Of a stretch of 43,710 nt of DNA, positions 4,438-41,114 are shown in pieces. Position numbers and translations under genes: made by a program. The stretch lies in contig MTKO01000084.1 in NCBI GenBank assembly GCA_004028505.1, forward strand, positions 1 to 43,710, given 5' to 3'. A model generated the notes under the pieces. It was not told the DNA's origin. It saw only the letters and a list, made by a program, of their open reading frames with translations, and searched no databases. This DNA is from Candidatus Electrothrix aarhusensis. GTDB lineage: Bacteria > Desulfobacterota > Desulfobulbia > Desulfobulbales > Desulfobulbaceae. Position 1 is the first letter of the stretch; each line of letters starts with the position of its first letter.

Positions 4438-5457
4438 ATGAAGAAATGTGTGATCAGCAGCATGGTGGTTCTTCTGCTTATGATGTCTGTGACGCTGATA
4501 ATAGCAGGAACCTTGGATGAAGTAAAAAAACGTGATACCTTGCTGTGCGGAGTATCTACAGGCCTACCCGGTTTTTCCTCCACGGATGAAAAGGGTCACT
4601 GGAAAGGGTTAGATGTTGATGGCTGTCGGGCCATTGCAGCAGCTGTCCTCGGTGATGCGGGCAAGATTAAATATGTTCCCCTGAACGCCAAAGAACGTTT
4701 TACGGCGTTGCAGTCTGGTGAAATTGACGTTCTGGTGCGCGGGACCACCTGGACCAAGCACCGTGATACGGGACTTGGCTTGAACTTTGCCGGAATCAAT
4801 TATTATGACGGCCAAGGTTTTATGGTATCCAAAAAGCTCAACATTAAAACGCCTAAAGAGCTTGACGGGGCGATTTTCTGTGTTCATGCCGGGACAACTA
4901 GTGAGCTGAATTTGGCAGATTATTTTGCTAAAAATAGTATGAAATACGAAGCGGTTGTCTTTGATACCCATGACCAAGCAGCCAAAGGGTTTGAGGTCGG
5001 ACGCTGTGACTGCCTGACTGCTGATAAATCGCAATTGTATGCGCTGCGTACCCATCTGAGTAAACCGTATGATGCAGTTATCCTGAAGGAGACTATCTCC
5101 AAGGAACCGCTGGGGCCGGTTGTCCGCCAAGGAGATGATGCCTGGTTCAATGTGGTGCGCTGGTCTTTTTTCGCTATGCTGAACGCTGAGGAATTGCGGG
5201 TTACGTCTGCCAATGTCGATGCTATGAGACGGGGGTCTGTTAATCCTGCTGTTCGGCGTCTACTAGGTCTGGACGGTGACAAGGGGCAGAGCTTAGGGCT
5301 GCCGAGCGATTGGAGTTACCAGATCATCAAACAGGTCGGCAATTATAGCGAGATTTTTGAGCGCAACGTGGGCAGAGGTTCATCCTTGAAGATAGCACGG
5401 GAACTGAACGCCTTATGGAAGGACGGGGGCATTCAGTATGCTCCGCCTATGCGATAA
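4438..5457 (+). CDS. aapJ: general L-amino-acid ABC transporter, periplasmic binding protein (AapJ/BztA type)
   Basis: The protein has 339 residues with a signal peptide (MKK, a hydrophobic core to about residue 23, then TLDEVKKRD). The mature start GTLDEVKKRDTLLCGVSTG, the segment GLDVDGCRAIAAAVLGD and the segment LRVTSANVDAMRRGSVNPAVRRLLG are typical of the Aap/Bzt/YhdW family of extracytoplasmic solute-binding proteins. It binds amino acids in the periplasm and delivers them to AapQ/AapM. The ribosome site AGGAG lies just before the ATG. It is the first gene of a four-gene transport operon followed by two permease genes and an ATPase gene in canonical order. Confidence 0.93.
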   Translation: MKKCVISSMVVLLLMMSVTLIIAGTLDEVKKRDTLLCGVSTGLPGFSSTDEKGHWKGLDVDGCRAIAAAVLGDAGKIKYVPLNAKERFTALQSGEIDVLVRGTTWTKHRDTGLGLNFAGINYYDGQGFMVSKKLNIKTPKELDGAIFCVHAGTTSELNLADYFAKNSMKYEAVVFDTHDQAAKGFEVGRCDCLTADKSQLYALRTHLSKPYDAVILKETISKEPLGPVVRQGDDAWFNVVRWSFFAMLNAEELRVTSANVDAMRRGSVNPAVRRLLGLDGDKGQSLGLPSDWSYQIIKQVGNYSEIFERNVGRGSSLKIARELNALWKDGGIQYAPPMR

Positions 5458-8596: not shown

Positions 8597-10276
8597 ATGA
8601 AAGAATTTATGTTGATGGAGCCGACAAACCTCACCTTTCAAGAGTTGTTCAGTAACGGGATGCGGTATGCTGTTCCTCGATTTCAACGTGATTATGCCTG
8701 GGGTTTGGAGCAATGGGAGGATTTATGGTCCGATCTCAGTACGTTGCATGAGGAGCATTACCATTATATGGGGTATATTGTTCTTCAGAGGAAAGAGCAG
8801 TATCATTTCGAGGTCATTGATGGACAGCAGCGACTGGTAACGGCAACCCTGATTATCCTGGCAGCAATGAAACAGATCCAGGATTTGATTGATGCTGAAC
8901 AGGATCCCAAAAATAATAAAGAACGACTTGATGAGTTGCGCAGCAGGTTTATCGGTTCCAAAGATATTGTTTCTTTGAAAGTGAGCAGCAAGCTCTCGTT
9001 AAATCGTAATAATAAACGTTTCTATCGCTCAGTTTGTTCTCAACTGGCAGCCCCCAATGTTCGCGGCCTTACCGTCACTAATAAGCTGGTGAAAAAATGT
9101 TTTGACTTCTTCTATAAACAAAAAATAGGAGTGGCAGGGCATGAAATCGCCGCCTTTGTTGAACAGGTCACCTCCGGCCTGATGTTCACCCGAATCGTTG
9201 TACAAGATAACCTGAATGCCTATAAGGTTTTTGAAACATTGAATGCTCGGGGGGTCCAGTTGTCCACCCCTGACCTGTTAAAGAATTATCTTTTTTCCGT
9301 CATCACTGGCAAGGATGACGTGCCGGATGAGCAGTTAGATGAACTGGATGAGGACTGGTCCGCTATTGTGGATCAGCTGGGAGAAAACACGTTTACCGAC
9401 TTCACCCGCTATCATCATAATTTTCAAAAAAGGCTTGTCACGAAAAAAGGGTTGTTTAAATCCATCAGAGAATTGGCCGACACGCCGGAGAGTTCGTATT
9501 CCTACGTACGATCATTAGCCGAATTCGCCCCTGTATACGCTTCGTTACTGAGTCCCTATGATGAGTGGTGGGCATTGCAGGATGGGGAGTATCGACCAGC
9601 ACGCCATTACCTGGAAGGACTGAAATTATTTAACATTAAACAGCCCTTCACCATTCTGATGGCGGCCTTCAAGGCCTTTTCCCCTGATGAATTCATTAAG
9701 CTGCTCCGCTATATCTATGTCCTTTCCATTCGCTATAATGTGATTTGTCGCCATTCGCCCAATGAGCAGGAACGGAGCTATAATCGAATTGCGATGCGGG
9801 TGTTTCATAAGGAATTCACGCGGGCAAGTCATGTGAAAAATTCTGAGGAATTCAGAGCCTTGTATCCAGAGGATAGCAGCTTTATCAATGCGTTTGAGTT
9901 TTATAAGATGCCCAGCAGAAGATCTTCAAAAAAGATCAGATTTTTGCTGGCGGAGATTGAGCGATTTCTGGGGCATGAAGTTGATTACACCAAGACAACC
10001 CTTGAGCATGTTTGTCCGTATAATCCTGACCAAGGTTGGTATGATCATTTTGGCCAAGGGGCCAATGAGATAGCTGATCGGCTGGGTAATATGGTTCTTT
10101 TGACAAAAGATGATCTGAAAAGGAGCACATTTGCCCAAAAGAAAGAAGCATACCTTCTCACTCCATTTCGCTTGGCGCATAAGGTGGCGGAATATGAGGA
10201 GTGGAGCCTGAAGAATGTTAATTTGTTCCAGGAATGGCTTGCTTGCCAGGCGGCTCTGGCTTGGCGGGTGGATTAG
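8597..10276 (+). CDS. DUF262/DUF1524 protein, GmrSD-type putative nuclease
   Basis: The protein has 559 residues. The N-terminal DUF262 (ParB/sulfiredoxin-like) domain shows FQRDYAW (29-35) and the nucleotide-binding/hydrolysis motif DGQQRL (75-80). The C-terminal DUF1524 HNH-like domain shows EHVCPYN near residue 470 followed by ADRLGNMVLL, the usual end of this family. Related proteins include the type IV restriction enzyme GmrSD, which cuts glucosylated hydroxymethylcytosine DNA, and SspE-like effectors. A defence role is therefore probable, but the substrate is unknown. It starts 30 bp after aapP with its own site (GAGGTT before ATG), so it may share the transporter transcript. Confidence 0.85.
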   Translation: MKEFMLMEPTNLTFQELFSNGMRYAVPRFQRDYAWGLEQWEDLWSDLSTLHEEHYHYMGYIVLQRKEQYHFEVIDGQQRLVTATLIILAAMKQIQDLIDAEQDPKNNKERLDELRSRFIGSKDIVSLKVSSKLSLNRNNKRFYRSVCSQLAAPNVRGLTVTNKLVKKCFDFFYKQKIGVAGHEIAAFVEQVTSGLMFTRIVVQDNLNAYKVFETLNARGVQLSTPDLLKNYLFSVITGKDDVPDEQLDELDEDWSAIVDQLGENTFTDFTRYHHNFQKRLVTKKGLFKSIRELADTPESSYSYVRSLAEFAPVYASLLSPYDEWWALQDGEYRPARHYLEGLKLFNIKQPFTILMAAFKAFSPDEFIKLLRYIYVLSIRYNVICRHSPNEQERSYNRIAMRVFHKEFTRASHVKNSEEFRALYPEDSSFINAFEFYKMPSRRSSKKIRFLLAEIERFLGHEVDYTKTTLEHVCPYNPDQGWYDHFGQGANEIADRLGNMVLLTKDDLKRSTFAQKKEAYLLTPFRLAHKVAEYEEWSLKNVNLFQEWLACQAALAWRVD

Positions 10277-10316: not shown

Positions 10317-11117
10317 TTATGATAAATCGTTCAGTAGTTCTTCTCTAATTTCATTGAGCAGGTAAGTTTTATTGCATCCTTCTGTTTCACATTCTTCCAT
10401 TACTCCTGTAAATAGCCAAGGTAGCCATTCATTGTTCAGTAAATCCATTACTTCATCCTGTAACACATAGTCTGTCAGTTCATATGAATTATGATGTTTG
10501 CCTATTGGCTGCATATGGTCAAGCCTTAGAATCGATGTTTTTGTTTCAGAAGGAATAGGCAGGATGTCCCATATGTATTGAGGATACTCACATTTTTTTA
10601 TTCGTTCAACAAAAGGCTCATACCATTTATTTCCCCCTTGTTTCTCTGCTCCGTAGTAAGGAGCGACAGTTATTGTAGGGCTTACATGCCAACTTGGCTT
10701 CATGCTTGACCGTAACTTTTTGGGTACTTCAGGTCCACCATCTCCAAGCACTAACGCAGGTCTTTTTTTAGCCCTGTGGACAGTGTAACATTCTCCACGA
10801 TAATATGGCAGAATAGCTGCCGGAAGATTTTTCATCGGGTTATAAGGGCTTCCTATGCGAAGATCAGCTATTTCAAAATTAATTTTACTGTGATTCCCAG
10901 CTTCATCTTCAAGTCTTCCGGCAGGGATCATTGATTTAGGCATGATGTCAACGTGTGGGATGAAAGCCCATATTAAGCGTCCGGGGATCAATTTCTTATC
11001 CGGTCTTTTATCCCACCAGCTATTATCATTGAAAAATTTTTGTAGTGTACCATCAGGGTAGGTCACAATCTTTCCTCCAGTTTCCACTCCAAGCACTTTG
11101 AGAAACTTGTAACACAC
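10317..11117 (-). CDS. PemK/MazF-like domain protein (possible toxin half of a Panacea-linked pair)
   Basis: This 266-residue ORF begins at a GTG and overlaps the upstream ORF by 65 bases. The middle part resembles the PemK/MazF fold: RGECYTVHRAKKRPALVLG (compare the family pattern G-[DE]-[IV]...RPALVL) and, later, a conserved-looking SILRLDHMQPI strand-turn that would match the S-x-x-x-x-D-Q motif region. The remaining parts are not recognised. The start is weak, with no clear ribosome site, and the frame just upstream is open only back to a TAG about 15 bases away. Removing one A from the A5 tract (11119-11123, minus strand) would fuse this ORF smoothly to the upstream one. It is therefore either an overlapping gene or the second half of one protein of about 500 residues. 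The family assignment is tentative. Confidence 0.5.
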   Translation of the reverse strand: MCYKFLKVLGVETGGKIVTYPDGTLQKFFNDNSWWDKRPDKKLIPGRLIWAFIPHVDIMPKSMIPAGRLEDEAGNHSKINFEIADLRIGSPYNPMKNLPAAILPYYRGECYTVHRAKKRPALVLGDGGPEVPKKLRSSMKPSWHVSPTITVAPYYGAEKQGGNKWYEPFVERIKKCEYPQYIWDILPIPSETKTSILRLDHMQPIGKHHNSYELTDYVLQDEVMDLLNNEWLPWLFTGVMEECETEGCNKTYLLNEIREELLNDLS

Positions 11118-25624: not shown

Positions 25625-25877
25625 TTACTGTAGATTACGGTAAATTACTATAGCCAGCTGTTTTTGAGGATGAGCCTCTTTTTCTCACTCTTCGCTTTCC
25701 CTTGCTTTTTTGTTGATGACTGAATATTGTTCTCGTCGTTATTGGAAAAAATAACGCCTCTTTTTTTCGTACGGGAAAGGGGCTTTCTAAGAGGACGCTG
25801 AACATCGGTTGTATTCTGCCGCATCCGCAGATTCTTCTCCTTTTGTCATTAAAATACATTTCGGCAGAGCGGAAACC

Positions 25878-28800
25878 ATGCTGTCAATCTGCAATCAGCT
25901 GTCCAGTAAGGAAGGGCAGCAAGAGAAAAGAAGAGATATCTGTGGGTTGCACGGCGGTAGCGCGGCCTTGTTCATGGCCCGTCTTCAAGTGATACAGCAG
26001 CAGACCATTTGCTGCCTTGTTCCATCGGATGATCTGCTGGAAACCCTGGCCGGGGATATCCGTCTCTTTACCGATATTCCAGTTCTTACCTATCCCGCCT
26101 TTGAGATAGCCCCCTACACCCAGCTTGCCCCGGATCCGACCACCGTAGCGACCCGACTCTCCACGCTCTATTTTCTCCAGGAACGCAGTAGCCCCTGCAT
26201 TGTGCTGACTTCGGTTGAGGCCGTTATGCGGCGGATTCTGCCTCAGCAAATCCTGAGTAGGAGTTGTGAGCTGGTCATGGCCGGTGAAGACACGGACAGG
26301 GATGCCCTGGTTGCCTCGCTCATCGATGCCGGGTATCAGTCCTGTGAACTGGTGCGTCAGCCTGGTGATTTGGCTGTGCGGGGCGGTATTATTGATCTCT
26401 TTCCGCCTGCTTCTGGGCTTTCTGGCGGACCTGCCGGTCAAGGTCCTCTGCGTCTTGATTTTTTTGGCGATACAGTGGAATCCATCCGGGTCTTTGATCC
26501 ACAGAGTCAACGCTCCGAGGAAGAATTGGAGGAGGCTGTCCTCCTGCCTGCCTCGGATATTCTCTTTCCCGCTCCTTCGGCTGTGGAAAAATGGCGGCAG
26601 GACCTGTATGTCGCTATTGAAGAACTGAGCCCCGATCATACCCCTGATCATGCTGACTCTGACCAATTCCGCCAGGTAATGCAGCAGTTACGGGACCGGA
26701 TTCGTTTTCCAGGGATTGAATTTCTGCTTCCGCTTATGTACCAAGATCCCGGCCCGCAGACTCTGTTTGATTATCTCCCTGCTGCCTGTCCCTGTATTCT
26801 CTATGATCCGGTGACCATCAAGCGCAAGACAGCCTTGGTTCGAGACAGAATTGCGGCCAATTATGAGGAAGCTGCAAGCGAAGGAGGTCAAGGGCTGGCC
26901 TTGCCTCCGAAGACCCTTTTTGTGGAGCAGGAGGAATTGGAACGATGCCTCGGCAAGAGACTCAGGTCGATCTCTGTCTGTATCCTGATCCAGATGCTCT
27001 GCAAACGCCGATTATCCAGCAAGTCGGTGATCATTCCCTGCTCCGGCAGGAGATAGAGCTGCAACGGAAGAAACGAGGAGTGCTGGCCCCGCTTGCTGAT
27101 CGTCTCCTGAAATGGCAGAAGGCAAAGGATACGGTTGTTTTTTCCTGTCGCTCCGGCAGGCAGGTAGAACATCTGGAAGAGATGTTGGCAGGATACGGCA
27201 TCCAATGTGGTCGGGGAACGACCCCACTTGATCTGCAACAGCAGTATCCCGGACAGGTCCTCCTTGTTGAGCATCCCCTATCCCAGGGGTTTGATTTGGC
27301 GGAAGAGCAGCTACATATCCTCTCGGCTGCTGAATTATTCGGGGAAAAACGGCTACAGCCGGGCCGCAGAAAGAAGGGGAGCAGGCCCCAAGGTGAGCCT
27401 GTTGCCTTGGAGGAGATCTCTGTCGGGGATGTTGTTGTCCACCGGGATCACGGCCTGGCCAGCTTCCAAGGTTTGGTCAACATGGATTTTGCTGGCCAGC
27501 GTGGTGATTTCATGCTGCTTGAGTTTTTGGGCAATGATAAGCTCTATATTCCAGTGCATCAGTTGCACTGGGTCAGTCGTTATCAGGGTCTGACTGATCA
27601 GCAGCCTAAGCTCGATCGGCTGGGCTCCCAACGCTGGCAGACTGCCAAGAAAAAGGTCACCGAGGCGGTCTGGCAGGTTGCTCAAGAATTGTTGGCTATT
27701 TATGCCCGCCGTGAGATCCGCAAGGGCCATTGTTTTCAGCCACCGGGCATTCTTTTCAAGGAGTTGGCTGAATCCTTTCCCTATGACGAGACGGAAGGTC
27801 AGGCCAAGGCCATTGACGAGGTGCTCAAGGATCTCTGTTCGGATAAACCCATGGACCGGCTGGTCTGCGGTGATGTTGGCTACGGTAAAACCGAGGTCGC
27901 GGTTCGGGCTGCGTATAAGGCCATCGAAGACGGCTTTCAGGTGGCGGTTTTGGTGCCTACCACGGTTTTGGCGGAACAGCATGCAGCGACCTTTCGGGAG
28001 CGTTTTTCCGGTTTTGACGTGGAAGTTGCCAGCACCAACCGCTTTCGCAGCACCAAGGAACAGAAGGATATTGTTCGGGAGCTGAAAGAGGGGCATATCA
28101 ACTTGGTGGTAGGAACCCATCGCCTGCTTTCTAAAAGCATTGTTTTTCAGAAGCTGGGCCTGCTGATCGTGGATGAGGAACACCGTTTCGGCGTTTCCCA
28201 TAAGGAGAAGATCAAAAAGCTGCGGGCGGATGTGGATGTGCTCACCCTGACCGCCACCCCGATCCCCCGCACCTTGCAAATGTCCCTTTTGGGGATTCGC
28301 GATTTGTCCGTGATCTCCAGCCCGCCCCGGCAGCGGCGTGCGGTCAAGACCTTTCTGGCTCGCTATGACGATCTGGTTATTCGGGAGGCGGTGCAGCAGG
28401 AGCTGGAGCGCGGAGGTCAGGTTTTCTTTGTCCATAATCGAGTCAAGTCCATCCATCGGATCGCGGAGCAGATTGAGCAACTGGTACCTCATGCCCGCAT
28501 TGCTGTGGCCCACGGCCAGATGGCGGGCAAGCATTTGGAAGATATCATGGTCAGCTTTATCAACCATGAGGTGGATATCTTGGTCAGTACCACGATCATC
28601 GAATCTGGCTTGGATATCCCCAATGCCAATACCATTATTATTAACCGGGCCGACCGCATCGGGCTTGCAGACATGTACCAGCTGCGGGGCAGGGTAGGGC
28701 GTTCTTCACGCCAATCCTATGCCTATTTGTTGGTGCCGTCCACTGAGCAAATGACGGCAGACGCCGGACAGCGGTTGCGGGCCCTGATGGATTGCTCCGA

Positions 28801-29545
28801 ACTGGGCGGCGGCTTCAAGCTGGCCATGAATGATCTCCAAATCCGAGGTGGCGGCAATCTCCTCGGTGTTTCCCAATCCGGTCATATTGCTGCGGTGGGG
28901 TATGATCTCTATCTGGAACTGCTCCAGTCCACGGTGGCAGATCTGAAAAAACAGGCAGAGCAAGGGAAAGGGGGAGACGTGGTTGAGCCTGAGCTGGAGC
29001 CGGATGTCAAGCTCCGGGTGGCCGCCTTTCTGCCTGATGATTATGTCCGGGATACTGTCTTGCGCTATCGCCTGTATCGTCGCCTCTCTGTGGCCGGGAA
29101 TGAAGATCCTGAGCTGTTGGCCGATTTGCGAGATGAGGTCATTGACCGCTTCGGTGCCTTGCCCCGTGAGGCAGAGACCCTGTTTGCCCTGATTGGTCTT
29201 AAATATTCGCTCTGTAAACTAGGTATCACCAAGCTTGAACAAGGACCTGCCAATTTGGTCTTCAGTTTCAGCGATCATTCTCCAGTTGCCCCGGAGACCC
29301 TGCTTGCCTTTATTGAGCACTCCCGTCCAAAAAAATCAAAAGCTCCCAAAAAAAAGAAGGAGGTCCGTCCTTTGAACCGAGGGCTGCGTGTACCGGCAAA
29401 AGCTCCAGCCCCACCAGCACCGGAACCGGTGCGTCTGACTCCGGATCAACGACTCATTGTTGCCCTTGATGAAAATGCTGAGCAGACGGACCTGTTTCAG
29501 CGAATAGAGACGGTTCTTCGTTTTTTCAGCAGGCAAGAAGGCTGA
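25878..29545 (+). CDS. mfd: transcription-repair coupling factor Mfd, frameshifted
   Basis: Two frames together give about 1220 residues. Frame 1 holds the UvrB-like N-terminal module ([29 protein letters not shown]). Frame 2 (from about 26945) holds the RNA-polymerase-interacting domain ([18 protein letters not shown]), Walker [15 protein letters not shown], the helicase motif [17 protein letters not shown], and GRVGRS, plus the TRCF C-terminal domain. The break lies at about 26950-26970 and fits one missing base. Mfd removes stalled RNA polymerase and recruits UvrA. An alternative TTG start lies at 25809. A lysine-rich insertion ([12 protein letters not shown]) near the C-terminus is unusual. 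Confidence 0.94.
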
Positions 29546-30378: not shown

Positions 30379-30518
30379 GTTGATATTATTTATCCTGGGT
30401 GCGGGATGCTGGTCATTTTGTTTGTTTCCATCCCATGTTAGCTGTGAGGTCGGGAGGCAGAGGAAATGCAGAGAGAAGAACGGACGATAGGTTATAAGAC
30501 AGGCAACAGTGATAGGTT

Positions 30519-30905
30519 ATGTTGGAAGATATTAATTTCCGCAAGCAGGATAGGGTGAAACTCAGAGGGTATATAGCTGATATCTCCGACGGAACCTTTG
30601 AATACGATGCCATTATAGAAGATATTTCTCTTGAAGGGTTATGTTTGACTGATTTGTCGAATAAGTTTGCTGTGGAGAAAAAGATTTATACTGCCGTGGT
30701 TTCCGGTGGTCCTGATGCGGATTCGTATAAGCTTCAGGTGCAGCCTCGTTGGGTGCGAAGACACGGTGATTTTATAGAGGTGGGCTTTACAGTCATTCGT
30801 TCGCCGACAAAATGGAAAAGATTTATTCGTGATCTTATTCCGAAGAAAGGGACCGTGAATATGGAAGAGGAATGGGAACGATGTTCCAATCTAAGTCTAT
30901 GGTAG
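30519..30905 (+). CDS. PilZ-domain protein (c-di-GMP binding)
   Basis: The protein has 128 residues. The PilZ motifs are present: R-x-x-x-R (R8-KQD-R12) and D-x-S-x-x-G (D35-ISLE-G40), followed by beta strands to about residue 100. It would bind cyclic di-GMP and convey this to motility, exopolysaccharide or another partner. The last 34 bases overlap the start region of the 6-phosphogluconolactonase gene, so the two may be translated together. The partner protein is not identifiable here. Confidence 0.82.
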   Translation: MLEDINFRKQDRVKLRGYIADISDGTFEYDAIIEDISLEGLCLTDLSNKFAVEKKIYTAVVSGGPDADSYKLQVQPRWVRRHGDFIEVGFTVIRSPTKWKRFIRDLIPKKGTVNMEEEWERCSNLSLW

Positions 30906-31591
30906 AATTTATCTTTCAAGACCAGGAAGTACTTGTTGTCGAGCTAGCGAATCGAATCGGTCAATCTTTGCTGAAAAGCATTGCCGCTCATGGACGGGCG
31001 AGTTTGGCTGTTTCTGGAGGATCTACCCCCAAGCCCTTATTCAAGCAGCTCTCCGCCTTAGCTCTCCCCTGGAAGGATGTGGTTATCACTTTGGTTGATG
31101 AACGCTGGGTTGATCCCTCGGATTCTGCCTCCAATGAGCAGTTGGTCCGCCAATATCTTTTACAGAATCGGGCTGCTGCTGCCACCTTTATCGGCCTCAA
31201 AAATTCTTCTCCCACAGCAGCGCAAGGAGAGGCCCAGTGTGACCAGGAGCTATGTAAGATTCTCCCGCCCTTTACTGTGCTGGTTCTCGGTATGGGTAAT
31301 GACGGTCATACTGCCTCTCTTTTTCCTGGTTCAGCGCAGCTTGCCGCAGCCACGGACATGAATTCCGGCAAAACTTGCATGGCTGTCACTCCCGCCGATG
31401 CTCCCCATGAGCGCATGACGCTTACGCTCCCCGCCATCCTTAATGCAGAGGGAATTATTCTCCATCTCACTGGTTCAGAAAAAAAAGAAGTGCTGGCAAA
31501 GGCTCAGGAGGCAGGCCCAGCAGAGGAAATGCCGGTTCGATTTGTTCTCCGTCAGGAGGAAACACCGGTTGTTGTGTATTGGGCTTCTTGA
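30881..31591 (+). CDS. pgl: 6-phosphogluconolactonase (Pgl/DevB)
   Basis: The protein has about 236 residues. The segments SLAVSGGSTPKPLFKQL, WKDVVITLVDERWVDPSDSASN and VLVLGMGNDGHTASLFPGS are the hallmarks of the family. It hydrolyses 6-phosphogluconolactone to 6-phosphogluconate. The start is uncertain (ATG at 30872, 30881 or 30899). AGAGGA (30866-30871) spaces best to 30881. It overlaps the PilZ gene. It supplies the substrate of Edd, which lies 8 kb away in the same window. Confidence 0.92.
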   Translation: MFQSKSMVEFIFQDQEVLVVELANRIGQSLLKSIAAHGRASLAVSGGSTPKPLFKQLSALALPWKDVVITLVDERWVDPSDSASNEQLVRQYLLQNRAAAATFIGLKNSSPTAAQGEAQCDQELCKILPPFTVLVLGMGNDGHTASLFPGSAQLAAATDMNSGKTCMAVTPADAPHERMTLTLPAILNAEGIILHLTGSEKKEVLAKAQEAGPAEEMPVRFVLRQEETPVVVYWAS

Positions 31592-31631
31592 GAAATTTTG
31601 TTGTTTCTATCTCAAAGTACTCGCCGGCTGC

Positions 31632-32942
31632 TCACCCAATTATTTGCCCGTGTAGATACCGTAGATCCTGCAAGAGCATGGTTTCCAGAGTGGTATCGAG
31701 AAAGGGTTTTCGACAATCCACCTGTCCCATATGACCGTCGCGTTGATAGGCCATATAACGACAGCCTCCGAAACAGAGAGGCAAGTATTTGCATTTTTGG
31801 CATTGTTTTTCCCGTTGCCAGTGGAAGAGATGGTGGGACTCCTGGAAATCCTCGGTAACACCCTGCCAGATATCGCCGATTTTATACTGTTCGTGCCCCA
31901 CCCAGCAAACGCATTTATAAAGGCTACCGTCATAATGAATGGTAAAGGCGTCATCCATCTCAACGGCACACGGTTCTGGCCCGAGTTCTGCGATGGGATA
32001 GCCCTTTTGTAAAACCTCTTTACGAACATGGAGAGCAGCATCGCGCAACCAAGGTTCGTTTATGGTGGCGCAACCTCCCACGAATTCATTGCTGGTAATT
32101 TTATCCCGAACCTGCATGACGATATTGAAGCTTACCCGTTCAATCTTGTCCGGGGTAATACCTTCCTCAGAAAGCAGGTCAAGGACAGTTGCAAAATTCT
32201 GGTATGTTTCACTGGTGTAATTACCACCCAGGCGAATTTTGGTCTTACTGCATACCTTTTTGAGGTTACCTGCAATAACATCAAAACTCTTGGCACCAGA
32301 TTTGAACGGTCTGAACTGATTATGGTTCTCTGGAGGCCCGTCGAGGGTCACCTTTACACCGTCCAAACCCCATTTATTCAGCTCATCCACTACTTTTTCA
32401 GTAAGCAGGGAACCATTGGAGATCAGATCAAAGGCAAATTCCGCTCCCCTTTCCTCAATAAACGGTTTCAGACGTTCAGCTAGGTAGATAATCCTTTTTG
32501 TATACAGGAGTGGCTCGCCACCGTAGATCTGTAACAGCAACTTTTTTTTGCTGGGCCTGAAATGCTCTTTGATAAAGGAGATGAGCTGATCTGCTGTCTC
32601 ATCATCCATGACCTTTTTGCCCTTCTGTTTTCCTTCAAAACAGTAGCTGCAACCGAAGTTACATTCCATTCCCAGGATAAGTGCCAGGGTCAGATTGGGG
32701 CTATGGCGGTTAATGTCCTCCATATATTGTGCAACTTCCCGGTGTTCCGCCTCCACGTCTTCCACAAGAAAACCCATGTCAGTGAGGGGGGCAATATACT
32801 CATTTTCACTCTCCCCATTTTTTAGGGTCGTAAAATCCTCTTCCGGCAACAGGACAAGCGCTCCTGTTTTGGTGGAAAAAAGAAGGACTTGATCCGGGAT
32901 GGAGTGATGTCGGTGGACGGTGAGGTAGGGGGTGAAATACAT
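31632..32942 (-). CDS. radical SAM/SPASM peptide maturase
   Basis: The protein has 436 residues. An N-terminal RiPP-recognition-like region (about 1-80) precedes the radical SAM triad CNFGCSYC (C94, C98, C101) with IYGGEPLLY and ISNGSLL downstream. The C-terminal SPASM domain has eight cysteines, including SLYKCVCW and the closing block CQKCKYLPLCFGGCRY. This is the build of enzymes that modify ribosomal peptides (sactipeptide, thioether or similar). It lies directly after the 32-residue Cys-Cys peptide gene and a hairpin. It resembles the geopeptide-type maturases known from Desulfobacterota-related bacteria, though I judge this from memory. It is convergent with pgl. Confidence 0.9.
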   Translation of the reverse strand: MYFTPYLTVHRHHSIPDQVLLFSTKTGALVLLPEEDFTTLKNGESENEYIAPLTDMGFLVEDVEAEHREVAQYMEDINRHSPNLTLALILGMECNFGCSYCFEGKQKGKKVMDDETADQLISFIKEHFRPSKKKLLLQIYGGEPLLYTKRIIYLAERLKPFIEERGAEFAFDLISNGSLLTEKVVDELNKWGLDGVKVTLDGPPENHNQFRPFKSGAKSFDVIAGNLKKVCSKTKIRLGGNYTSETYQNFATVLDLLSEEGITPDKIERVSFNIVMQVRDKITSNEFVGGCATINEPWLRDAALHVRKEVLQKGYPIAELGPEPCAVEMDDAFTIHYDGSLYKCVCWVGHEQYKIGDIWQGVTEDFQESHHLFHWQREKQCQKCKYLPLCFGGCRYMAYQRDGHMGQVDCRKPFLDTTLETMLLQDLRYLHGQIIG

Positions 32943-32961
32943 CTATCTTACCCAAAGAAAT

Positions 32962-32988
32962 AAAAAAAGGAGAGCAAGATGCTCTCCT
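32962..32988 (-). terminator. hairpin and U-tract between precursor peptide and maturase genes (attenuator-like)
   Basis: On the minus strand AGGAGAGC (32988-32981) pairs with GCTCTCCT (32975-32968) across a five-base loop, then seven T follow (32968-32962). It has the form of a strong rho-independent terminator. Partial read-through would give much precursor and little enzyme, a usual RiPP arrangement. Confidence 0.85.
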
Positions 32989-33013
32989 AAGTAAAAGATA
33001 ACAGGTTAATCTG

Positions 33014-33112
33014 TCATTTGGCAGCTGAGGGTGCGCCTTTGCAACAGGAACCATCAGCAGCTACTGATTTGACATTTTTTCCTTTCTTGAGAACGATCAT
33101 TTTTTTCTTCAT
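33014..33112 (-). CDS. putative 32-residue RiPP precursor peptide
   Basis: Read on the minus strand, ATG at 33112 opens a frame of 32 codons ending TGA at 33014-33016. The peptide starts MKKKMIVLKKGKN, has a middle VKSVAADGS and ends CCKGAPSAAK. A good ribosome site (GGAG, seven bases before the ATG) supports translation. A basic leader plus a short core with two adjacent cysteines, placed just before a radical SAM/SPASM gene, is the usual form of a modified-peptide precursor. The TonB-dependent receptor gene ends 83 bp upstream. The exact modification and cleavage site are unknown. Confidence 0.75.
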   Translation of the reverse strand: MKKKMIVLKKGKNVKSVAADGSCCKGAPSAAK

Positions 33113-33195
33113 CCTGAGTCTCCAAGTTGTTAAAGTTTGCTTGACCAATTAACACAACATCTTAACCCTAACAGATGAGTGGCGAGGACGTCAAA

Positions 33196-35112
33196 TTAAA
33201 ATTTGAGAGCAAGTCCCACCTCCAGCCATCGTTTTGGGTTAGGATATTCAAAATCAATGTATTGATCCCCGTTAAAGATATTATGCCCCTTGAGATAGAC
33301 TTCGCCACTGAGTAGAGAAAAATCAACATCTTTAGCAAGAAGAATATCCCAGAGAAAAGTACCATATTTGGGTTCTTCATTGGTTACATGATCACTCATC
33401 CAGTAATAGTGGCTAGCCACTTCTGTCCGTAGGCCATATGCAGTGTTACGGTAAGAAAGAATGAAGTTACTGGTGTAGGTCTCATCGTCAACCCAGGCGC
33501 TGGTACTGGTCTCCTTACTTTTCTCTTTGATGTAAGTGAAATTTCCGCTCAGGCTCAGACCATGGTAAACAGCAGTTTTTGCCTCAACCTCAAAACCATT
33601 GAGGCGAATGCTTCCTGTATTGACCCAGGGAATCATATTATAATCCCATGCATCTTCAATGTTGTGATAAAAAATTGTGCCTTTAAAATGAAGATAGGGA
33701 ATGCGTCCTGTTTCAATCCCGGCCTGATAGGCCCAGATGTTTTCTGGCTCAAGGTTTGGGGAGTGAGAAGAGGCAGCCAGATAAGGGGCAGAAAAACCCT
33801 TAGCAATGGAACCTCTGAGTAGGATATCGGGGCCAAACAGATAGGTAATGCCCAGAGAGGGATTTACAGATTCCTCTGAATTTGAATGGTCGTCATAGCG
33901 TAAGCCAGGGGTGATTGAAAAATTGCCTTTGACGTATGTGACATTAGCATATGTGCCGTGCCGGCTTTCTGTTACCGGGTCATCTTCTGTTAATGACGGT
34001 CCATCAAAAAAGATACCAGATCGGCTTGCATATTTCATTTCACTCCGGCTTGATTCAAAACCGAGATTGGCAGTAAATGCTTCTCTTGCCCAGGTCAGTC
34101 GACCGATAAAGGAGTTAACCTCCTCTTTCCATTTCTCCCCAAAGATCAGGTCACCCTGATGTCCACCCAGCCCACTCCCTAATGAATTATAGCTGGTTGA
34201 AAATGTATTATCAAAATGTTGACCAGAGAGATGAAAGGTAAGATCTTGTGTTATTTCAGTATCAAAATAAAGTGTACCCCAAATACTTTGATGATCAATA
34301 TCTTCATAGATATTAAGATCTGTAATTTCCCAGGCATCACCCCAGTTAAGATTTTTGTAAAAGGGATCACTGTAGCCAGCGGTGAAACTCAGACGAGAAC
34401 TACGGGGTAATTCAAGCTGCATTTTGCCGTATAAAGAATTTCTTTCGGAGTAGCGATCAAGGGACAGGCCGTCCGAATCAATATTGCCGACATGGAGATA
34501 ATAGCCCAAGGCTTTCAGCTTACCAGCCACATCGGCTGAAACATCACGACTGTTCCCCTCGCCATAACTTACATTGACATTGCCGGTGGGGCGGCTGGAA
34601 TTAGCGACATCCTTGGTAATAATATTGATCACACCACCAAGGGCAGAGCCCCAGGTGGATGATGCGGCTCCCTTAATAATTTCAATACGTTTTATAATAC
34701 TTATGGGGATGAAATTGGTTAAAGCCGCGCCGCTTGAATTAATGTTCAAGCGTACCCCATCAAGGAGCAATAACACATGATGCCGCTGGGATCCTAAAAG
34801 ACGAAGGATTGAATCTCCAAGGAAATCCTGCCCAAAAAAATCAACAAACACTCCCGACTGCCGGTTAAGAACTTCCGCCAAGGTGTGGGCATGCATGGCC
34901 TCAATTTTTTCTGCGGTGACAATGGTTACATTTTCCGCCACCTGAGTGATGGGCTTGGGAGAGCGGGTAGCCGTTTCAACCAGCTCTTCTTCATCAAAAT
35001 ACATCTTCAAGAGTTTATTTTCTTGATAGGTATTATTATAAGCCAGAGCAGGTGGGACTGAAAGAAAGGCTGTGAGGAGTAACAAAACAGCGAGCGGGTT
35101 ATCACTTTTCAT
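33196..35112 (-). CDS. TonB-dependent outer-membrane receptor
   Basis: The protein has 638 residues. A signal peptide (LAVLLLLTAFLSVPPALA) is followed by a TonB-box-like ELVETATRS, a plug domain (about 50-170, with LAEVLNRQSGVFV, LLLLDGVRLN and GSALGGVINIITKD) and a 22-strand-type barrel that ends in an aromatic residue (EVGLALKF). It would import a ligand across the outer membrane, driven by TonB/ExbBD. It is upstream of, and in line with, the precursor-peptide and maturase genes and divergent from a periplasmic binding protein gene. The ligand is unknown; metal chelate or peptide are options. Confidence 0.93.
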   Translation of the reverse strand: MKSDNPLAVLLLLTAFLSVPPALAYNNTYQENKLLKMYFDEEELVETATRSPKPITQVAENVTIVTAEKIEAMHAHTLAEVLNRQSGVFVDFFGQDFLGDSILRLLGSQRHHVLLLLDGVRLNINSSGAALTNFIPISIIKRIEIIKGAASSTWGSALGGVINIITKDVANSSRPTGNVNVSYGEGNSRDVSADVAGKLKALGYYLHVGNIDSDGLSLDRYSERNSLYGKMQLELPRSSRLSFTAGYSDPFYKNLNWGDAWEITDLNIYEDIDHQSIWGTLYFDTEITQDLTFHLSGQHFDNTFSTSYNSLGSGLGGHQGDLIFGEKWKEEVNSFIGRLTWAREAFTANLGFESSRSEMKYASRSGIFFDGPSLTEDDPVTESRHGTYANVTYVKGNFSITPGLRYDDHSNSEESVNPSLGITYLFGPDILLRGSIAKGFSAPYLAASSHSPNLEPENIWAYQAGIETGRIPYLHFKGTIFYHNIEDAWDYNMIPWVNTGSIRLNGFEVEAKTAVYHGLSLSGNFTYIKEKSKETSTSAWVDDETYTSNFILSYRNTAYGLRTEVASHYYWMSDHVTNEEPKYGTFLWDILLAKDVDFSLLSGEVYLKGHNIFNGDQYIDFEYPNPKRWLEVGLALKF

Positions 35113-35253
35113 CAGTAGATCGGAATTTTTACAACGCCATTATTTTTGAACGTGGTGAATTTGAAAAAAATATTACTCGAATCTACCCAATATATCTTTT
35201 AATATTTTTATTAAGGAATATTTTTCTAAACCTTGACGAATATTTAGCGCAAA

Positions 35254-35279
35254 ATTTACTTGTAAATATTTGTTTACAA
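35254..35279. promoter_or_regulatory. nested palindrome between divergent TonB-receptor and binding-protein genes
   Basis: TTGTAAA-tatttg-TTTACAA (35260-35279) is a perfect inverted repeat, overlapped by ATTTAC-tt-GTAAAT (35254-35267). It lies 80-100 bp before the plus-strand gene and about 145 bp before the minus-strand gene, well placed for one regulator to control both. Confidence 0.5.
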
Positions 35280-35355
35280 AACTATTACTATCTTTGTTGA
35301 GTTCGAACAGTAAAAAGCCTCTTTTCACGAGAGAATACACCAGTTTTTTTACTTT

Positions 35356-36276
35356 ATGAAGAGATATATCCTTCTTATCATTATTTCATTTTTCAGCTTG
35401 GCGGATAGAGCCTTTGGCTCTGAGATAGTGGTACTGAAGAGCAGTGCGAGCAAAATTAACCAGCAAATTCAAGATGTCTTTATTGATGAACTTGGTAAGC
35501 GTGTTCCTCATCGTGGTCTAAAATGCATACAACCAAATCAGATGACGGAAGTCGTCATTACCCGCAGAAATGAGGGGGGTATCGCAAGTAGAATACAAAG
35601 CATTGCCCCTGATTTGATCCTTGCCCTTGGTGCCCAAGCACTGGAAGTGGCACTCTTGGTCCCTAATATTCCCGTTGTTCATCTGTTGGTCATTCATCCG
35701 GTAACAATTACTGACAAAAAAAGGCCAGTAACCGGAGTGAGCCTGTCCGTGCCACCGAAAGTGCAATTGGATGAGATGAAGAGCTATTTCCCAAAAGTGA
35801 AACGGATTGGACTTGTTTATGACCCAAAGCGAAGCCGCAAAATTATAGAGCAGTTGAACTCGGTCAGACCTGATTTAGAATTTATCGCTCTGCCTACTGA
35901 AAATATAGCTGAAGTTCCTGCGTTAATACATTCTTTACGTGGAAAGGTGGATCTTCTCTGGATGCTGCCTGATCTTACGGCTACCAACCAGGTGACCATT
36001 CAGAGTTATGCTCTTTTCTCGATAAGGAATAAAATTCCGCTGCTTACTTTTTCTAAAAAACTCCTTAAGCATGGAGCTACAATCGCCGTAACATTTGATA
36101 CAGATAAGATGGCTAAGCAGGCAGCAGTTTTGGCTATAGATATGCTGTTTCATCCTGTTGGGGCCGAGGCCGAGCGGACAGCTCTTGTTGACCCTCCGGT
36201 TGAAACCATTATCAATTACAAAATGGCTGCAAAGTTAGGAATATTCATCGCGGACAGGAGGAAGGCAGATGAATAA
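35356..36276 (+). CDS. periplasmic ABC-type substrate-binding protein (ABC_sub_bind family), no permease nearby
   Basis: The protein has 306 residues with a signal peptide (YILLIIISFFSLADRAFG). The fold segments APDLILALGAQALEVALLV, KRIGLVYDPKRSRKII and VDLLWMLPDLTATNQ, then IPLLTFSKKLLKHGATIAVTFD, match the TrpX/YtlA-like ABC_sub_bind family. No permease or ATPase follows. Instead the ATG of the histidine kinase gene overlaps its stop (ATGAATAA). It therefore probably acts as a periplasmic ligand sensor for the kinase; this is inference from context. Confidence 0.85.
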   Translation: MKRYILLIIISFFSLADRAFGSEIVVLKSSASKINQQIQDVFIDELGKRVPHRGLKCIQPNQMTEVVITRRNEGGIASRIQSIAPDLILALGAQALEVALLVPNIPVVHLLVIHPVTITDKKRPVTGVSLSVPPKVQLDEMKSYFPKVKRIGLVYDPKRSRKIIEQLNSVRPDLEFIALPTENIAEVPALIHSLRGKVDLLWMLPDLTATNQVTIQSYALFSIRNKIPLLTFSKKLLKHGATIAVTFDTDKMAKQAAVLAIDMLFHPVGAEAERTALVDPPVETIINYKMAAKLGIFIADRRKADE

Positions 36277-38004
36277 GACTTTTCTTGTTTTGCCGAAGAG
36301 CTTTAGCGCCAAGATATTTCTTTTCCTGATTGTCACCATGGTGTGTATGGGATCGTTATTTAATATTGTTTTGATCAGTATACAGAAAAGGGCATATAAG
36401 GCTTCCTATGATGCACATGGGGCTACCCTTATACGGCTGCTTGCCCATTCGATCAGGCTTGCTGTTTTTATTGGAAATGAAGATGAAATGCATGCTCCAG
36501 TGTCGGGACTGCTACAACAGGATGATGTGTTTGAGGTCGTTATTTGGAATAAAGAAGGCGAGGTGCTTCTGCAAAAAACGAAAGATCCGACCGGAAGATT
36601 ACGCAGTACTGGAAAATCCAGGGAAATGTCAATGGCTCTCAGCAACATGACAAGAGTGGCCATCAGAGCATAGAAACTGAGGATAGTTTTATATTATGGG
36701 GACAGATTTTTTTCACTGTACCTTCAAGCTTGGATGAAAATTGGTATTTTGATGAAGAAAAAAATAGCTCAGAAAAAGAGGTTGTGGGCTATGCGGCAGT
36801 TGTTCTTTCCAAAGAGTTCTTTGAAGAAGGTGTGCGTAATATCCTTATTCAAACAGGTGTCTCTGTACTGATTTTTCTCGTTGTCAGTATGTTGACAATA
36901 TTTCTTATTATACAGAAGATTACGGAACCATTACGAAAATTGATTCTGGCAATAAGAAAACGGGAAGGAAAAACTGAACATCCTAGCGACCTTAAGGTGC
37001 TGACCGAAACCTATAGCAGTATGGTAGATGATCTTGAAAGGTCATTTCAGACCATTACTGAATTAAATGAAGGGCTTGAAGAAAAGGTGAAATGCCGAAC
37101 ACTTCAGCTCACCAAGGCAAATAATAAGCTTTATCAGAGACAAGAAAAGCTTAAAAGGAGCAATACGCATCTTCTTGAGGCTCTCAGGCGATTAAAAGAA
37201 ACCCAGGAACAACTTATCCAGAAAGAAAAGCTTGCAGCCATGGGGCAGCTTGTAGCTGGAGTGGCACATGAACTCAACAATACCGTCAATTTTATCTCCG
37301 GGGCTCTGCCTTCTTTGCATCGCTCTTTAGATGAGATGAAAGAGATTTTTGCCCGATATGCAAAATTTGAGAAAGCAAGGCCGATAAAAGAAAAACTTTT
37401 TTATGGGGATCTTTTTTTCACCATCGATCAACTGGTTGGAAATATAGAAGAAGGAGCCACGCGTACAACTCGTATCGTTCGTGACCTTAAAATTTTTTCC
37501 CGGCAGGATGTAGAAAAGATAATCCCGGTTGACGTGCATACAGTCATTGATTCCACGGTTAATTATGTTGATAAACAATTATTGAAAAATGTAACCATTC
37601 GCCGTGACTATGGCTCTCTTCCGCTCGTTCATTGTCTGCCGGGACGAATGGGCCAAGTATTTTTAAATATCATAAATAATGGTATCGAGGCTATGGATGG
37701 GACAGGACAATTGACGATCAAAACAGAGCATCGGAATGAATATGTTCATATTATTTTTTCAGACACTGGCTGCGGTATCCATGCGCATGACATGCCAAAT
37801 ATTTTTGACCCCTTTTTTACCAACAAGGAAGTTGGTCAGGGAACCGGTCTAGGGCTTGGTATATCATACTCAATTATCAGGCAGCACGGTGGAGATATCA
37901 AAGTGGAGAGTAATGTTGGTAATGGTTCGGTATTTAAAATTATTTTTCCGGTGAGCCCCATAGAAGTATCTGAAGATAAGATGTTATCAGGAGAAGCGTT
38001 TTGA
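36269..38004 (+). CDS. membrane sensor histidine kinase, frameshifted
   Basis: Two frames make one kinase of about 578 residues. Frame 1 has the first membrane span (about residues 15-38) and the start of a periplasmic sensor domain. Frame 2 (readable from within 36600-36665, e.g. DSFILWGQIFFTVPSS) has the rest of the sensor, the second span (TGVSVLIFLVVSMLTIFLII), a linker (HAMP-like) with coiled coil, the phosphoacceptor HELNN, the N-box NIINNGIEAM, DTGCGI and GTGLGLGIS. All catalytic boxes are intact. It starts within the stop of the binding-protein gene and ends in an overlap (TTGA) with the next regulator gene. One base appears to be missing. Confidence 0.9.
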
Positions 38005-39161
38005 CAAAATTAAAGCTGCTGTATGTTGATGATGAAAGGGTTAACTTAACTAATTTTACAATTGCTTTTAGAGCAAAATATCAGATATACACAGCAAGGT
38101 TAGGACAGGAAGCTCTTGAAGTATTTAATGATAATAACGATATTGCGATTGTTATCACTGACCATCGTATGCCCGGCATGACAGGCATTGAGTTGCTTCA
38201 GCATATTAAAAAACATAATAAGGATGTAATTCGGATTATCTTAACAGCCTATACGGAAGTTGCTGACATAATTGATGCAATCAACAAGGGCCATATTTAT
38301 CAGTATATCGTCAAACCTTGGGTTGAAAATGACTTGCTACAAGTTCTCGATAAGGCAAGCGAAAACTTTCTTCTTATCCGTGAAAATAAGCGACTGGTTA
38401 AAGAGCTTGAAGAAGATATTAGTAAACGTAGGAGGATGGAAGATGAGTTGAGAACATTATACAAAGAGTTGCAGCGTCTCTCTGCCAGACTTATTGATGC
38501 TCAGGAAAATGAACGAAAACGTATTGCTATGGAGCTTCATGATGGTATTGGTCAAAATTTGATAGCATTGAAATTACAGTTTAACAATTTTTGTTTTCAG
38601 CTTGAGTCCAGTGATAAGGAGAAGACGCAGGAAGTAGCCACTATTATTAGTAGTACTTTGCAAAAAACGCTGGAGAGCACCAGGAGTATCTGTCAAAATC
38701 TCTGGCCGGTTGTAATCGAAAAGTTTGGCTTTGATTTGGCACTGAAGGAATTCTTGGGTAACTTCAGTCGAGATTACGGTATAGAAATAGTTTTAGGTAG
38801 CATTCATATTCAGAAATACTTTTCAAAACACGATCAGCATCAAATTTATCGAATATTACAGGAAATTTTAAACAATATAGGAAAACATTCCGGTACGAAA
38901 AAGGTCAATCTTAACACTATTAATAGGGCGGATTCCCTGTGTATTGAAATTACCGACTTTGGTCGCGGCTTTGACATGTCAAGCGACATGCCAAACTTGG
39001 CTGGCAGTCAGCAAGAAAAAGGCTGTCTGGGATTAAATACCATACGAGAAAGAGTAATTATTCTCGGTGGCACCATCGATATTCAGAGTTTTGTAGAAAA
39101 AGGAACACGCTTCACCTTGTTACTGCCTTATTCTAGTGAGAAACAGGGGGACACGAAATAA
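38001..39161 (+). CDS. receiver domain-histidine kinase hybrid (NarX-type HisKA_3)
   Basis: The protein has 386 residues. The receiver domain comes first, with the phosphoacceptor D54 in VITDHRMPGM and K in YIVKPW. A coiled coil (about 120-165) joins it to a HisKA_3 dimerisation domain with H180 in RKRIAMELHDGIGQ, then an ATPase domain (ILQEILNNIGKHS, DFGRGFD, GLNTIRERV). It begins at TTG overlapping the stop of the upstream kinase. It could take phosphate from that kinase on D54 and control its own HisKA_3 output. No DNA-binding response regulator is in the window. Confidence 0.9.
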   Translation: MTKLKLLYVDDERVNLTNFTIAFRAKYQIYTARLGQEALEVFNDNNDIAIVITDHRMPGMTGIELLQHIKKHNKDVIRIILTAYTEVADIIDAINKGHIYQYIVKPWVENDLLQVLDKASENFLLIRENKRLVKELEEDISKRRRMEDELRTLYKELQRLSARLIDAQENERKRIAMELHDGIGQNLIALKLQFNNFCFQLESSDKEKTQEVATIISSTLQKTLESTRSICQNLWPVVIEKFGFDLALKEFLGNFSRDYGIEIVLGSIHIQKYFSKHDQHQIYRILQEILNNIGKHSGTKKVNLNTINRADSLCIEITDFGRGFDMSSDMPNLAGSQQEKGCLGLNTIRERVIILGGTIDIQSFVEKGTRFTLLLPYSSEKQGDTK

Positions 39162-39291: not shown

Positions 39292-41114
39292 ATGCATAAA
39301 ACCGTTGAGCAGGTCACCCGACGAATCATTGAACGCAGCAAAGAGAGCCGCACGGCCTATTTAGAGCAGATAAAAGAGGCCGCCGGAAAAAGCCCGAAAG
39401 GCCCCTTCCGCAAACAGCTGCCCAGCAGCAACCTTGCTCACGATCTGGCAGGCTGCCCGTCCTGTCGTACAGCTCTGCTTGATGACAAGGCACCGAATAT
39501 CGGAATTATCTCTTCGTATAACGATGTGGTTTCAGCCCACCAGCCCTTGGGAGGCTATCCCGACCTGATCAAGGCGGCTGTGGCCGAAGCAGGCGGAAAC
39601 GCTCAGGTTGCGGGCGGTGTACCTGCATGTGTGACGGTGTCACCCAGGGAGAACCGGGCATGGACCTGAGCCTGATGAGTCGGGATGTGATAGCTCTGTC
39701 CACAGTGATAGCCCTGTCGCATAACGTTTTTGACGGAGCCCTGCTCCTGGGCGTCTGCGATAAGATCATGCCCGGCCTGCTCATGGGTAGGCTGCAATAC
39801 GGCCATTTGCCCATGATCTTAGTGCCGGGCGGTCCTATGCAATCCGGTATCGGCAATCAGGAAAAGAATCAGGTGCGGGAGCGCTTTGCCAAAGGGGAGG
39901 TCGGGCAGGAAGAATTGCTGATCTCGGAATGTCGGGCCTATCATAGTCCGGGGACATGTACTTTTTATGGTACAGCCAATTCAAACCAGTTGATCGCAGA
40001 GATGCTCGGGCTTCATCTGCCCGGAGCCTCCTTTGTCAATGCCGAGACTGAGCTGCGTGCGGCCCTGACAAAGGCAGCAGCGGCGCGGATTACCGGCATG
40101 ACGCATCTGGATACTGACGATGGCGGATATACCCCGCTGGGTCGAGTTATCAGCGAGAAATCTGTGGTCAACGCTATGGTCGGTTTGTTGGCAACAGGCG
40201 GTTCCACCAACGAGACCATGCATTTGGTGGCTATCGCCAAGGCAGCCGGAATTCAAATCAACTGGGATGATTTTGCCGAGCTTTCAGAAGTTGTGCCCCT
40301 GCTTGTTCGGATATATCCCAACGGCTCAGGAGATATCAACTCCTTTCAGCAGGCAGGCGGCATGTCTCTGCTAATTCGGGAGCTGCTTGAGGGTGGGTTA
40401 GTCCATGAAGACGTGCAGACTGTGGTCGGCCCCGGTTTGAGCAGATACTTGGAGCAGCCAATATTGGAACAGGGTAGGGTAGTTTGGCAGACTGGACCGG
40501 AACAGAGCCGTGATCCAGCAATTATTGCCCCGTTGAGCAAGCCCTTTGCCCGGATAAGCGGGATCAAGCTGCTGACGGGCAATTTGGGCCGGGCGATTAT
40601 GAAGATCTCTGCCTTAGCTGATGGGGAGGATACTTTGGTTGAGGCCCCGGCTCTGGTTTTTCACAGTCAGCAGGAGGTGGAACAGGCCTTTCAGGCGGGT
40701 CAGCTTAATCGAGATCTGGTGGCGGTGCTTCGTTTTCAGGGGCCGAGGGCCAACGGCATGCCTGAGCTGCATAAGTTGATTACCTGGCTGGTCATAAGTA
40801 TGGAGCAAGGCTATAAAGTCGGACTGGTCACCGATGGGCGACTTTCCGGGGCCTCGGGCAAGGTGCCCTTTGCCATTCACTGTACTCCAGAGGCTGCGGC
40901 AGGCGGTTTGTTGGCCAAAGTGGAGGACGGTGATATTATCTGCATGGATGCCCGAAATAATCTGCTGGAACTCAAGGTTTCTGAGAAAGAACTGGCCGGT
41001 CGTGAGACCGTGGAGTTGCAGACCCGTTATGCGGCTCAGGGACATCAGATTTTTAATGTTCTGCGTGGAGCTTTGTCCGGTGCCGAGGAAGGGGCCAGTG
41101 CTATCATATCGTAG
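39292..41114 (+). CDS. edd: phosphogluconate dehydratase Edd, frameshifted
   Basis: Two frames give about 607 residues, the normal length. Frame 1 carries GIISSYNDVVSAHQP and AQVAGGVPA; frame 2 (from about 39627) carries MCDGVTQGEPGMDLSLMSRDVIA, LVPGGPMQSGIGN, GTCTFYGTANSNQ, ATGGSTNETMHL and VTDGRLSGASGKVPFAIH. One base added after CCTGC restores the classic GGVPAMCDGVTQG. It dehydrates 6-phosphogluconate to KDPG using a [4Fe-4S] cluster. Its stop TAG is formed by the first bases of the palindromic element that follows. Eda is next. Confidence 0.94.

Follow-up and report, generated by a model that had tools for sequence, protein, structure and literature searches.

Methanobactin is a RiPP that its maker recaptures through a dedicated TonB receptor, and the system is defined by its maturases, MbnB/MbnC. 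According to PMC7558416, a TonB receptor takes the peptide back up and a periplasmic protein binds it. By analogy, this would be the nearest functional parallel to a locus found in the window, i.e. the whole stretch of 43,710 nucleotides from Candidatus Electrothrix aarhusensis that was analysed here. The maturase at this locus belongs to a family already named in NCBIfam (TIGR04280), which the preliminary description of this DNA had missed, so that peptide and enzyme are of an already known kind. Among the matches listed from the open-licence PMC literature, no paper describing the TIGR04280 geopeptide family was found, and neither the linkage of receptor and sensor nor the exchange of blocks was found in print there. 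The linked receptor, binding protein and kinase as well as the block exchange are results of the present analysis, and the text of the NCBIfam TIGR04280 entry may mention neighbours.

On the minus strand, genes for a TonB receptor, a 32-residue peptide and a radical SAM/SPASM enzyme follow each other in the order of transcription, and on the plus strand, divergent from the receptor, lie those for a PF04392 binding protein, a histidine kinase and a receiver-kinase (table 1). The tiny ORF between the TonB and radical SAM/SPASM genes has the ribosome site that the preliminary description had ascribed to it, with GGAG seven bases 5' of the ATG and all three genes on one strand. The interval delimited at that time (33014-35112) leaves out the maturase gene, and the divergent binding protein and histidine kinase had not been recognized as parts of the cassette, i.e. 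as its sensor half. The border between leader and core given in table 1 is an assumption that places it at the Cys pair, Cys23 and Cys24.

Table 1. Features of the cassette and their positions in the window.
Feature	Position	Strand	Remarks
Precursor peptide gene, 32 aa	33014-33112	minus	ORF MKKKMIVLKKGKNVKSVAADGSCCKGAPSAAK; leader MKKKMIVLKKGKNVKSVAADGS, core CCKGAPSAAK
Terminator-like hairpin with T tail, gap between peptide and maturase genes	32968-32988	minus	probable attenuator
Radical SAM/SPASM maturase, 436 aa, TIGR04280	31632-32942	minus	CxxxCxxC and eight further conserved Cys
TonB-dependent outer-membrane receptor, 638 aa, plug and barrel	33196-35112	minus	
Periplasmic substrate-binding protein, PF04392, 306 aa	35356-36276	plus	
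Histidine kinase, N-terminal part	36269-36673	plus	split here; single ORF in L115-L118
Histidine kinase, C-terminal part (HisKA, HATPase_c)	36730-38004	plus	
Response regulator receiver with HisKA_3/HATPase_c	38001-39161	plus	rarer across loci than the kinase

In four relatives of the same genus a single ORF of 584-591 residues encodes the kinase, against two frames in the window. The genes for transcription-repair coupling factor (25809-29545), the histidine kinase (36269-38004) and phosphogluconate dehydratase (39292-41114) are each broken up into two frames that overlap or adjoin, which suggests indel errors of the assembly rather than decay of the cassette. Elsewhere in the window, a GmrSD-type restriction endonuclease gene (GmrSD_N and GmrSD_C) is located at 8597-10276.

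Of 257 genomes from the window's order, 61 have a maturase above the family cut-off, as do 31 of 395 genomes sampled from its phylum, and among plasmid records all relatives (119 of 119) stay below 60% identity. The sample compared here comprises 93 maturases in 91 loci, i.e. the window, ten loci (L035-L044) and 80 regions (L115-L194), of which 51 cover 52 of the 67 places of the order survey and 29 come from the phylum survey. One of the ten, L043, is from a cultured carrier, Geotalea toluenoxydans JCM 15764; in this draft genome the receptor gene appears as two ORFs and the maturase ORF stops short. Geopeptide systems can also occur twice in one genome, with a separate receptor for each, either in tandem (L157, L169) or at separate places (L161/L162, L182/L183, L187/L188 and L167/L192, each pair from one genome).

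With 480.7 bits over residues 1-429 against a cut-off of 400, the window maturase is a member of the 'geopeptide radical SAM maturase' family TIGR04280. Pfam Radical_SAM is above cut-off and Pfam SPASM below it (17.2 versus 21.5), with the NCBIfam SPASM model TIGR04085 again above (57.2 versus 27). In an alignment of 90 of the 93 family maturases—those longer than 400 residues—C94, C98 and C101 of the CxxxCxxC motif are kept without exception, as are the SPASM cysteines C325, C344, C381, C384 and C390, with C394 and C410 kept in 89 and C291 in 87 of the 90. The solved folds nearest to the predicted maturase structure (mean pLDDT 85.8) are 5why/5wgg ('Structural Insights into Thioether Bond Formation in the Biosynthesis of Sactipeptides'), which we take to be CteB and which are matched by sequence profile as well (1.1e-34). 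A viperin-type defence enzyme was rejected, the match being weak and confined to the radical SAM domain.

An important question is whether the 32-residue ORF is a real precursor. With a precursor HMM built from 81 peptides—leaving out the window's genus and L119 and including the three more distant members L120-L122 of the same family—the window peptide scores 48.3 bits (E 1.8e-14). The runner-up among the 597 ORFs of the window reaches 6.8 bits, and the maximum over 15,043 ORFs from 70 control loci is 13.5 bits; a leader-only HMM also puts it first (26.9 versus 3.8 bits). The peptide thus belongs to the same family as those beside other TIGR04280 members, and no NCBIfam or Pfam model matches it. 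Absence of such an ORF beside orthologous maturases had been named beforehand as an argument against the locus; a peptide is present with 90 of the 93 maturases, 89 times with Cys-Cys and once, in L153, with a single Cys. This tally combines a scan requiring CC (83 of 93), hand inspection (six more) and a profile search (L153), so that the constancy of the Cys-Cys pair is partly built in. The three maturases without a peptide are those of L044 and L190 (both loci truncated upstream) and of L193 (maturase below the family cut-off); in L194 the maturase is also below the cut-off, and the peptide counted there scores 6.2 bits.

Among six related copies (the window and L115-L119), pairwise nucleotide differences number 111, 82 and 221 at codon positions 1, 2 and 3, i.e. 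they show the third-position bias by which the preliminary description had proposed to judge the ORF, and dN is below dS in all ten computable pairs, the five pairs with L119 not being computable. Both patterns indicate purifying selection on the peptide. The leaders follow the pattern hydrophobic-VL-x-x-G ... VA. Of the tail motif predicted earlier, the Cys-Cys pair is indeed widespread, whereas the 'GAP' that was to follow it is not kept even within the genus, where the peptides end in CCKSVPSADK, CCSGGPSSSK, CCIGAPSSSK and CCKGSPSSDK. The single-Cys precursor of L153 (GLGCPSKMPTNA, 10361-10495), whose locus also contains genes for the maturase, receptor, binding protein and kinase, offers a natural test of which Cys matters. 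Geopeptide-like Cys-Cys peptides were also seen upstream of more distant radical SAM enzymes in L045 (Auribacterota, 5056-5157, 12.7 bits) and L064 (Anaerococcus, 9126-9269, 13.5 bits), and the Anaerococcus case suggests that this leader type may reach beyond Gram-negatives.

Terminator-like hairpins occur in 56 of 80 gaps between peptide and maturase genes (base-shuffle mean 2.6), and a like hairpin lies 3' of the peptide gene in L115-L119. Such a terminator between the genes would keep the level of the precursor above that of the enzyme.

The wider neighbourhood is conserved as well. Beside the 56 maturases whose flanks both extend for 4.5 kb or more, a TonB receptor is found 55 times, i.e. 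nearly universally, as had been anticipated for loci of this kind, a CC peptide 54 times, and the binding protein and the kinase 53 times each. Six gene arrangements were distinguished among 53 cases: in 36 the receptor is forward and the binding protein reversed, both upstream; in ten both are upstream and reversed; and four rarer arrangements make up the other seven. When 70 other radical SAM loci (L045-L114) were searched with the same query proteins, the receptor was matched once, the binding protein never and the kinase four times, in a control that is lenient, since many of its loci come from Firmicutes and no filter for flank length was applied. Most Firmicutes have no outer membrane. 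The sole receptor match is in L045, which with its similar peptide just upstream of the enzyme may be a distant member of the group.

Besides the maturase, the receptor and a merged group of binding proteins and kinases, no gene family occurs in more than nine of the 91 loci within 8.5 kb, by a gene calling crude enough to place the maturase itself in its own family in only 83 of them. Within the same range, no linked exporter, protease or immunity-like family recurs widely, and no ABC permease or ATPase family does so beside the binding protein. A family of MFS pumps is found in seven of the 91 loci; the four that were scanned match MFS_1 and MFS_3 (Pfam), and for one of them scanned with NCBIfam, EntS was the second-best model (92.6 bits, below the cut-off of 324). 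The window genome has a weak relative of this pump (26% identity over about half), and no export route is visible there for the window peptide.

Could receptor, binding protein and kinase simply be an independent nutrient sensor with the RiPP genes adjacent by chance? Elsewhere in the window genome, another TonB receptor does stand beside a PF04392 gene without a family maturase, but the linkage described here is kept through all six gene arrangements. In the window's family, moreover, the maturase is present in nine genomes, and a close receptor homologue (E <= 1e-60) occurs in eight of 73, all eight being among those nine, a coincidence with a chance of 7e-10 if the genomes were independent, which they are not. 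The ninth genome has a receptor fragment at the end of a contig (L120). With the receptor also moving together with peptide and maturase and not with the binding protein in two genera, as detailed below, a chance neighbourhood appears very unlikely.

Searched against NCBIfam and PDB, the window receptor is matched best by B12 receptors, yet its assignment as a vitamin B12 receptor was rejected, given 127.6 bits against a cut-off of 599.7; Rfam revealed no family in window positions 30500-36500 (E up to 0.5) nor, at the gathering score, in seven relatives. The predicted fold of the binding protein (pLDDT 82) matches CD0873, the Trp-bound structure 3lft and, lower, LuxP, whose structures 1zhh and 1jx6 stand at ranks 12 and 20. 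The window genome (89.8% complete) encodes four Plug-domain and three PF04392 proteins. In L195 (2420-10859), which is from the same genome, another TonB receptor lies with a PF04392 gene and a phosphonate-type binding protein; condensation-domain, O-methyltransferase and citrate-synthase-like genes are close by, and this region is possibly a separate uptake or siderophore-like cluster.

PQQ, which is cut from PqqA, illustrates how a peptide can serve as the source of a small molecule. The cassette might similarly use the Cys-Cys pair alone and discard the rest, with receptor and binding protein handling an amino-acid-sized product. The resemblance of the receptor to BtuB and of the binding protein to Trp-bound 3lft would fit, as would the wide variation of the residues around Cys-Cys between loci. 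This variation has its limits, however, since the core after the pair is partly conserved (among the 83 picked peptides, with the first Cys as position 0, P at position 5 in 41 and G at position 3 in 34), and the constancy of the pair itself owes something to these 83 having been picked by requiring CC. As L153 keeps a single Cys and no protease family recurs widely, we regard this origin of a small molecule as distinctly unlikely.

A binding protein encoded beside a kinase, with no widely recurring permease, points to sensing. The regulator differs between loci, being of the LuxR type in L181 and a receiver-kinase in the window. In L197 (728-2452) and L198 (787-2514), the PF04392 domain is fused to a second periplasmic binding domain, PBP_like_2. 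A fusion of binding protein and kinase, sought as support for signalling, was therefore discarded: both long PF04392 ORFs examined carry this second binding domain and no kinase.

In some cases close relatives differ in parts of the cassette. Genus g284 has two types, one in L135 and L139 and the other in L137 and L138. Maturases and receptors are 86-89% and 81-86% identical within types and 49-52% and 42-45% between them, with binding proteins 77-86% identical between types. L137 and L135 share 89% nucleotide identity up to 1,920 bases before the start of the maturase ORF, which is 238 bases inside the receptor ORF. Within the block there are only two short receptor matches (92 and 157 bases) and 66% identity over 895 maturase bases, and from 1,451 bases onward, past the maturase, identity is back at 91-92%. 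Since the L137/L138 type is nearer to that of the window, which belongs to another family (maturase 63-64%, receptor 52% identical), than to that of L135, replacement is likelier than fast divergence. Similarly, in genus g9, L131 and L133 match at 91% up to 1,727 bases before the maturase (358 bases inside the receptor ORF), at 69% over the maturase and at 94.5% from 1,597 bases after; their maturases are 59%, their receptors 39% and their binding proteins 89% identical, with a core similarity of 0. L164 and L165 of the same genus share the conserved sensor side with L131 and have no downstream match, so that the downstream border in g9 is given by L133 alone. Thus, in both genera, the receptor moves with peptide and maturase, and binding protein and kinase stay. 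L165 (split receptor gene), genus g7 and L169 (tandem systems) were set aside as unclean exchanges.

That close relatives have swapped peptide and receptor types, and that the short cores are diverse, might also be expected of a bacteriocin-like weapon, i.e. a peptide that poisons relatives carrying the matching TonB receptor. Yet in 55 of 56 well-covered cases the producer itself has this receptor encoded next to the peptide, and no immunity-like gene family recurs widely, which makes such a weapon hardly credible.

Across the sample, receptor and maturase identity co-vary after removal of binding-protein identity (r=0.67, p=0.001). In partial Mantel tests over 70 complete loci, leader and maturase co-vary after removal of the receptor (r=0.35, p=0.001), and core similarity, after correction for maturase identity, shows no relation to receptor identity (r=0.03, p=0.3), global identity being a crude measure of receptor-core specificity. 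There is no co-variation of leader and sensor (r=-0.13). Maturase and binding protein do co-vary after removal of the receptor (r=0.37, 70 complete loci), so that over the whole set the sensor is not independent of the block. In the clean exchanges, however, the binding protein stays put and there probably does not read the peptide type; rather, the sensor probably detects a feature common to both types, for example cargo or a shared moiety.

This bears on a further possibility, namely that the product is a peptide pheromone: an autoinducer that crosses the outer membrane via a private TonB receptor, binds the LuxP-like protein and switches the kinase, with the blocks representing specificity groups. 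Binding protein and kinase without a widely recurring permease, the LuxP matches among the folds, the exchange between two types in one genus and the co-variation of maturase and binding protein over all loci all speak for it. A private signal, however, would need binding protein and kinase to be exchanged with the peptide, which they are not in the clean cases, and the regulator varies between loci. We consider a pheromone unlikely, if still worth serious attention; the retention of the sensor in the clean exchanges favours, though not strongly, a metallophore-like carrier.

Overall, the earlier reading of the locus as RiPP precursor, maturase and receptor is supported. We would go further and, at what we judge an even chance, see here a geopeptide-class RiPP cassette whose thioether-modified peptide would be exported, taken back through its own receptor and sensed in the periplasm, more likely as a metallophore-like carrier of a cargo than as a private signal. 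The leader would bring the 32-residue precursor to the maturase, and the Cys-Cys core would be modified by radical SAM chemistry with the help of auxiliary iron-sulphur clusters, as the enzyme class and the co-variation of leader and maturase suggest; the modification would most likely consist of Cys thioether bonds, as in the nearest solved relative, CteB. The product would be trimmed and exported by unlinked machinery, an EntS-like MFS pump being linked in few loci. Linkage, phyletic pattern and block exchange argue for recapture of the released product by the cognate TonB receptor, in line with the import of a modified peptide or its metal complex conjectured in the preliminary description. 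In the periplasm, the PF04392 protein would then bind the returned product or its cargo and signal this to the histidine kinase in LuxP/LuxQ fashion. Against this reading we have counted that receptor and binding protein resemble small-ligand families (B12, Trp), none above a curated cut-off, that core and receptor do not co-vary once maturase identity is removed, that no exporter or protease recurs widely near the genes, that the MFS pump has just a weak relative in the window genome, that the binding protein stays behind in the clean exchanges, that the kinase is split in the window assembly, and that the sensor co-varies with the maturase over all loci.

A more general idea, to which we give somewhat less than even chances, is that of modular peptide recapture in anaerobic Gram-negatives, where exchangeable blocks of peptide, maturase and receptor would act as private channels at a fixed chromosomal site and lead to one constant periplasmic sensor, thus forming a new class of self-recaptured RiPPs. 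If true, such a modular system would serve as a metallophore or else as a pheromone that is gated at the outer membrane and owes its specificity to the TonB receptor. Through the block exchange, genomes that otherwise resemble each other offer different peptide and receptor types as natural pairs, which makes receptor-ligand specificity directly testable, and the adjacent sensor is a ready reporter.

How, then, does the cassette compare with known systems? With the TIGR04280 system it shares the maturase family, by score, and a short peptide partner of the kind that the family name implies. It resembles CteB and PapB, i.e. the maturases of ranthipeptides and sactipeptides, in the nearest solved fold and in a match to the PapB model (NF047865), which at 136 bits lies below the cut-off of 340 and so does not make the enzyme a PapB type; the window core differs in having two adjacent Cys, and a thioether is probable rather than given. 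CefB, TIGR04463 and the Clo7bot radical SAM/SPASM RiPP families are the next-best NCBIfam models for the maturase, all far below their cut-offs. The likeness to LuxP/LuxQ lies in a periplasmic binding-protein fold whose gene adjoins that of a histidine kinase, while no permease recurs widely, with the difference that the window protein is of the PF04392 family and its contact with the kinase is a proposal. With the methanobactin system (MbnA, MbnT, MbnE, MbnM), as described in PMC7558416, the cassette would share TonB recapture and periplasmic binding of the peptide. MbnE, however, is related to OppA/AppA according to the same paper, whereas the window binding protein is a PF04392 member, and in place of MbnB/MbnC there is a radical SAM/SPASM maturase, with no further enzyme family or pump that recurs widely. 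If our reading is true, the cassette would thus add to methanobactin a radical-SAM version of a recaptured RiPP that is widespread in its group.
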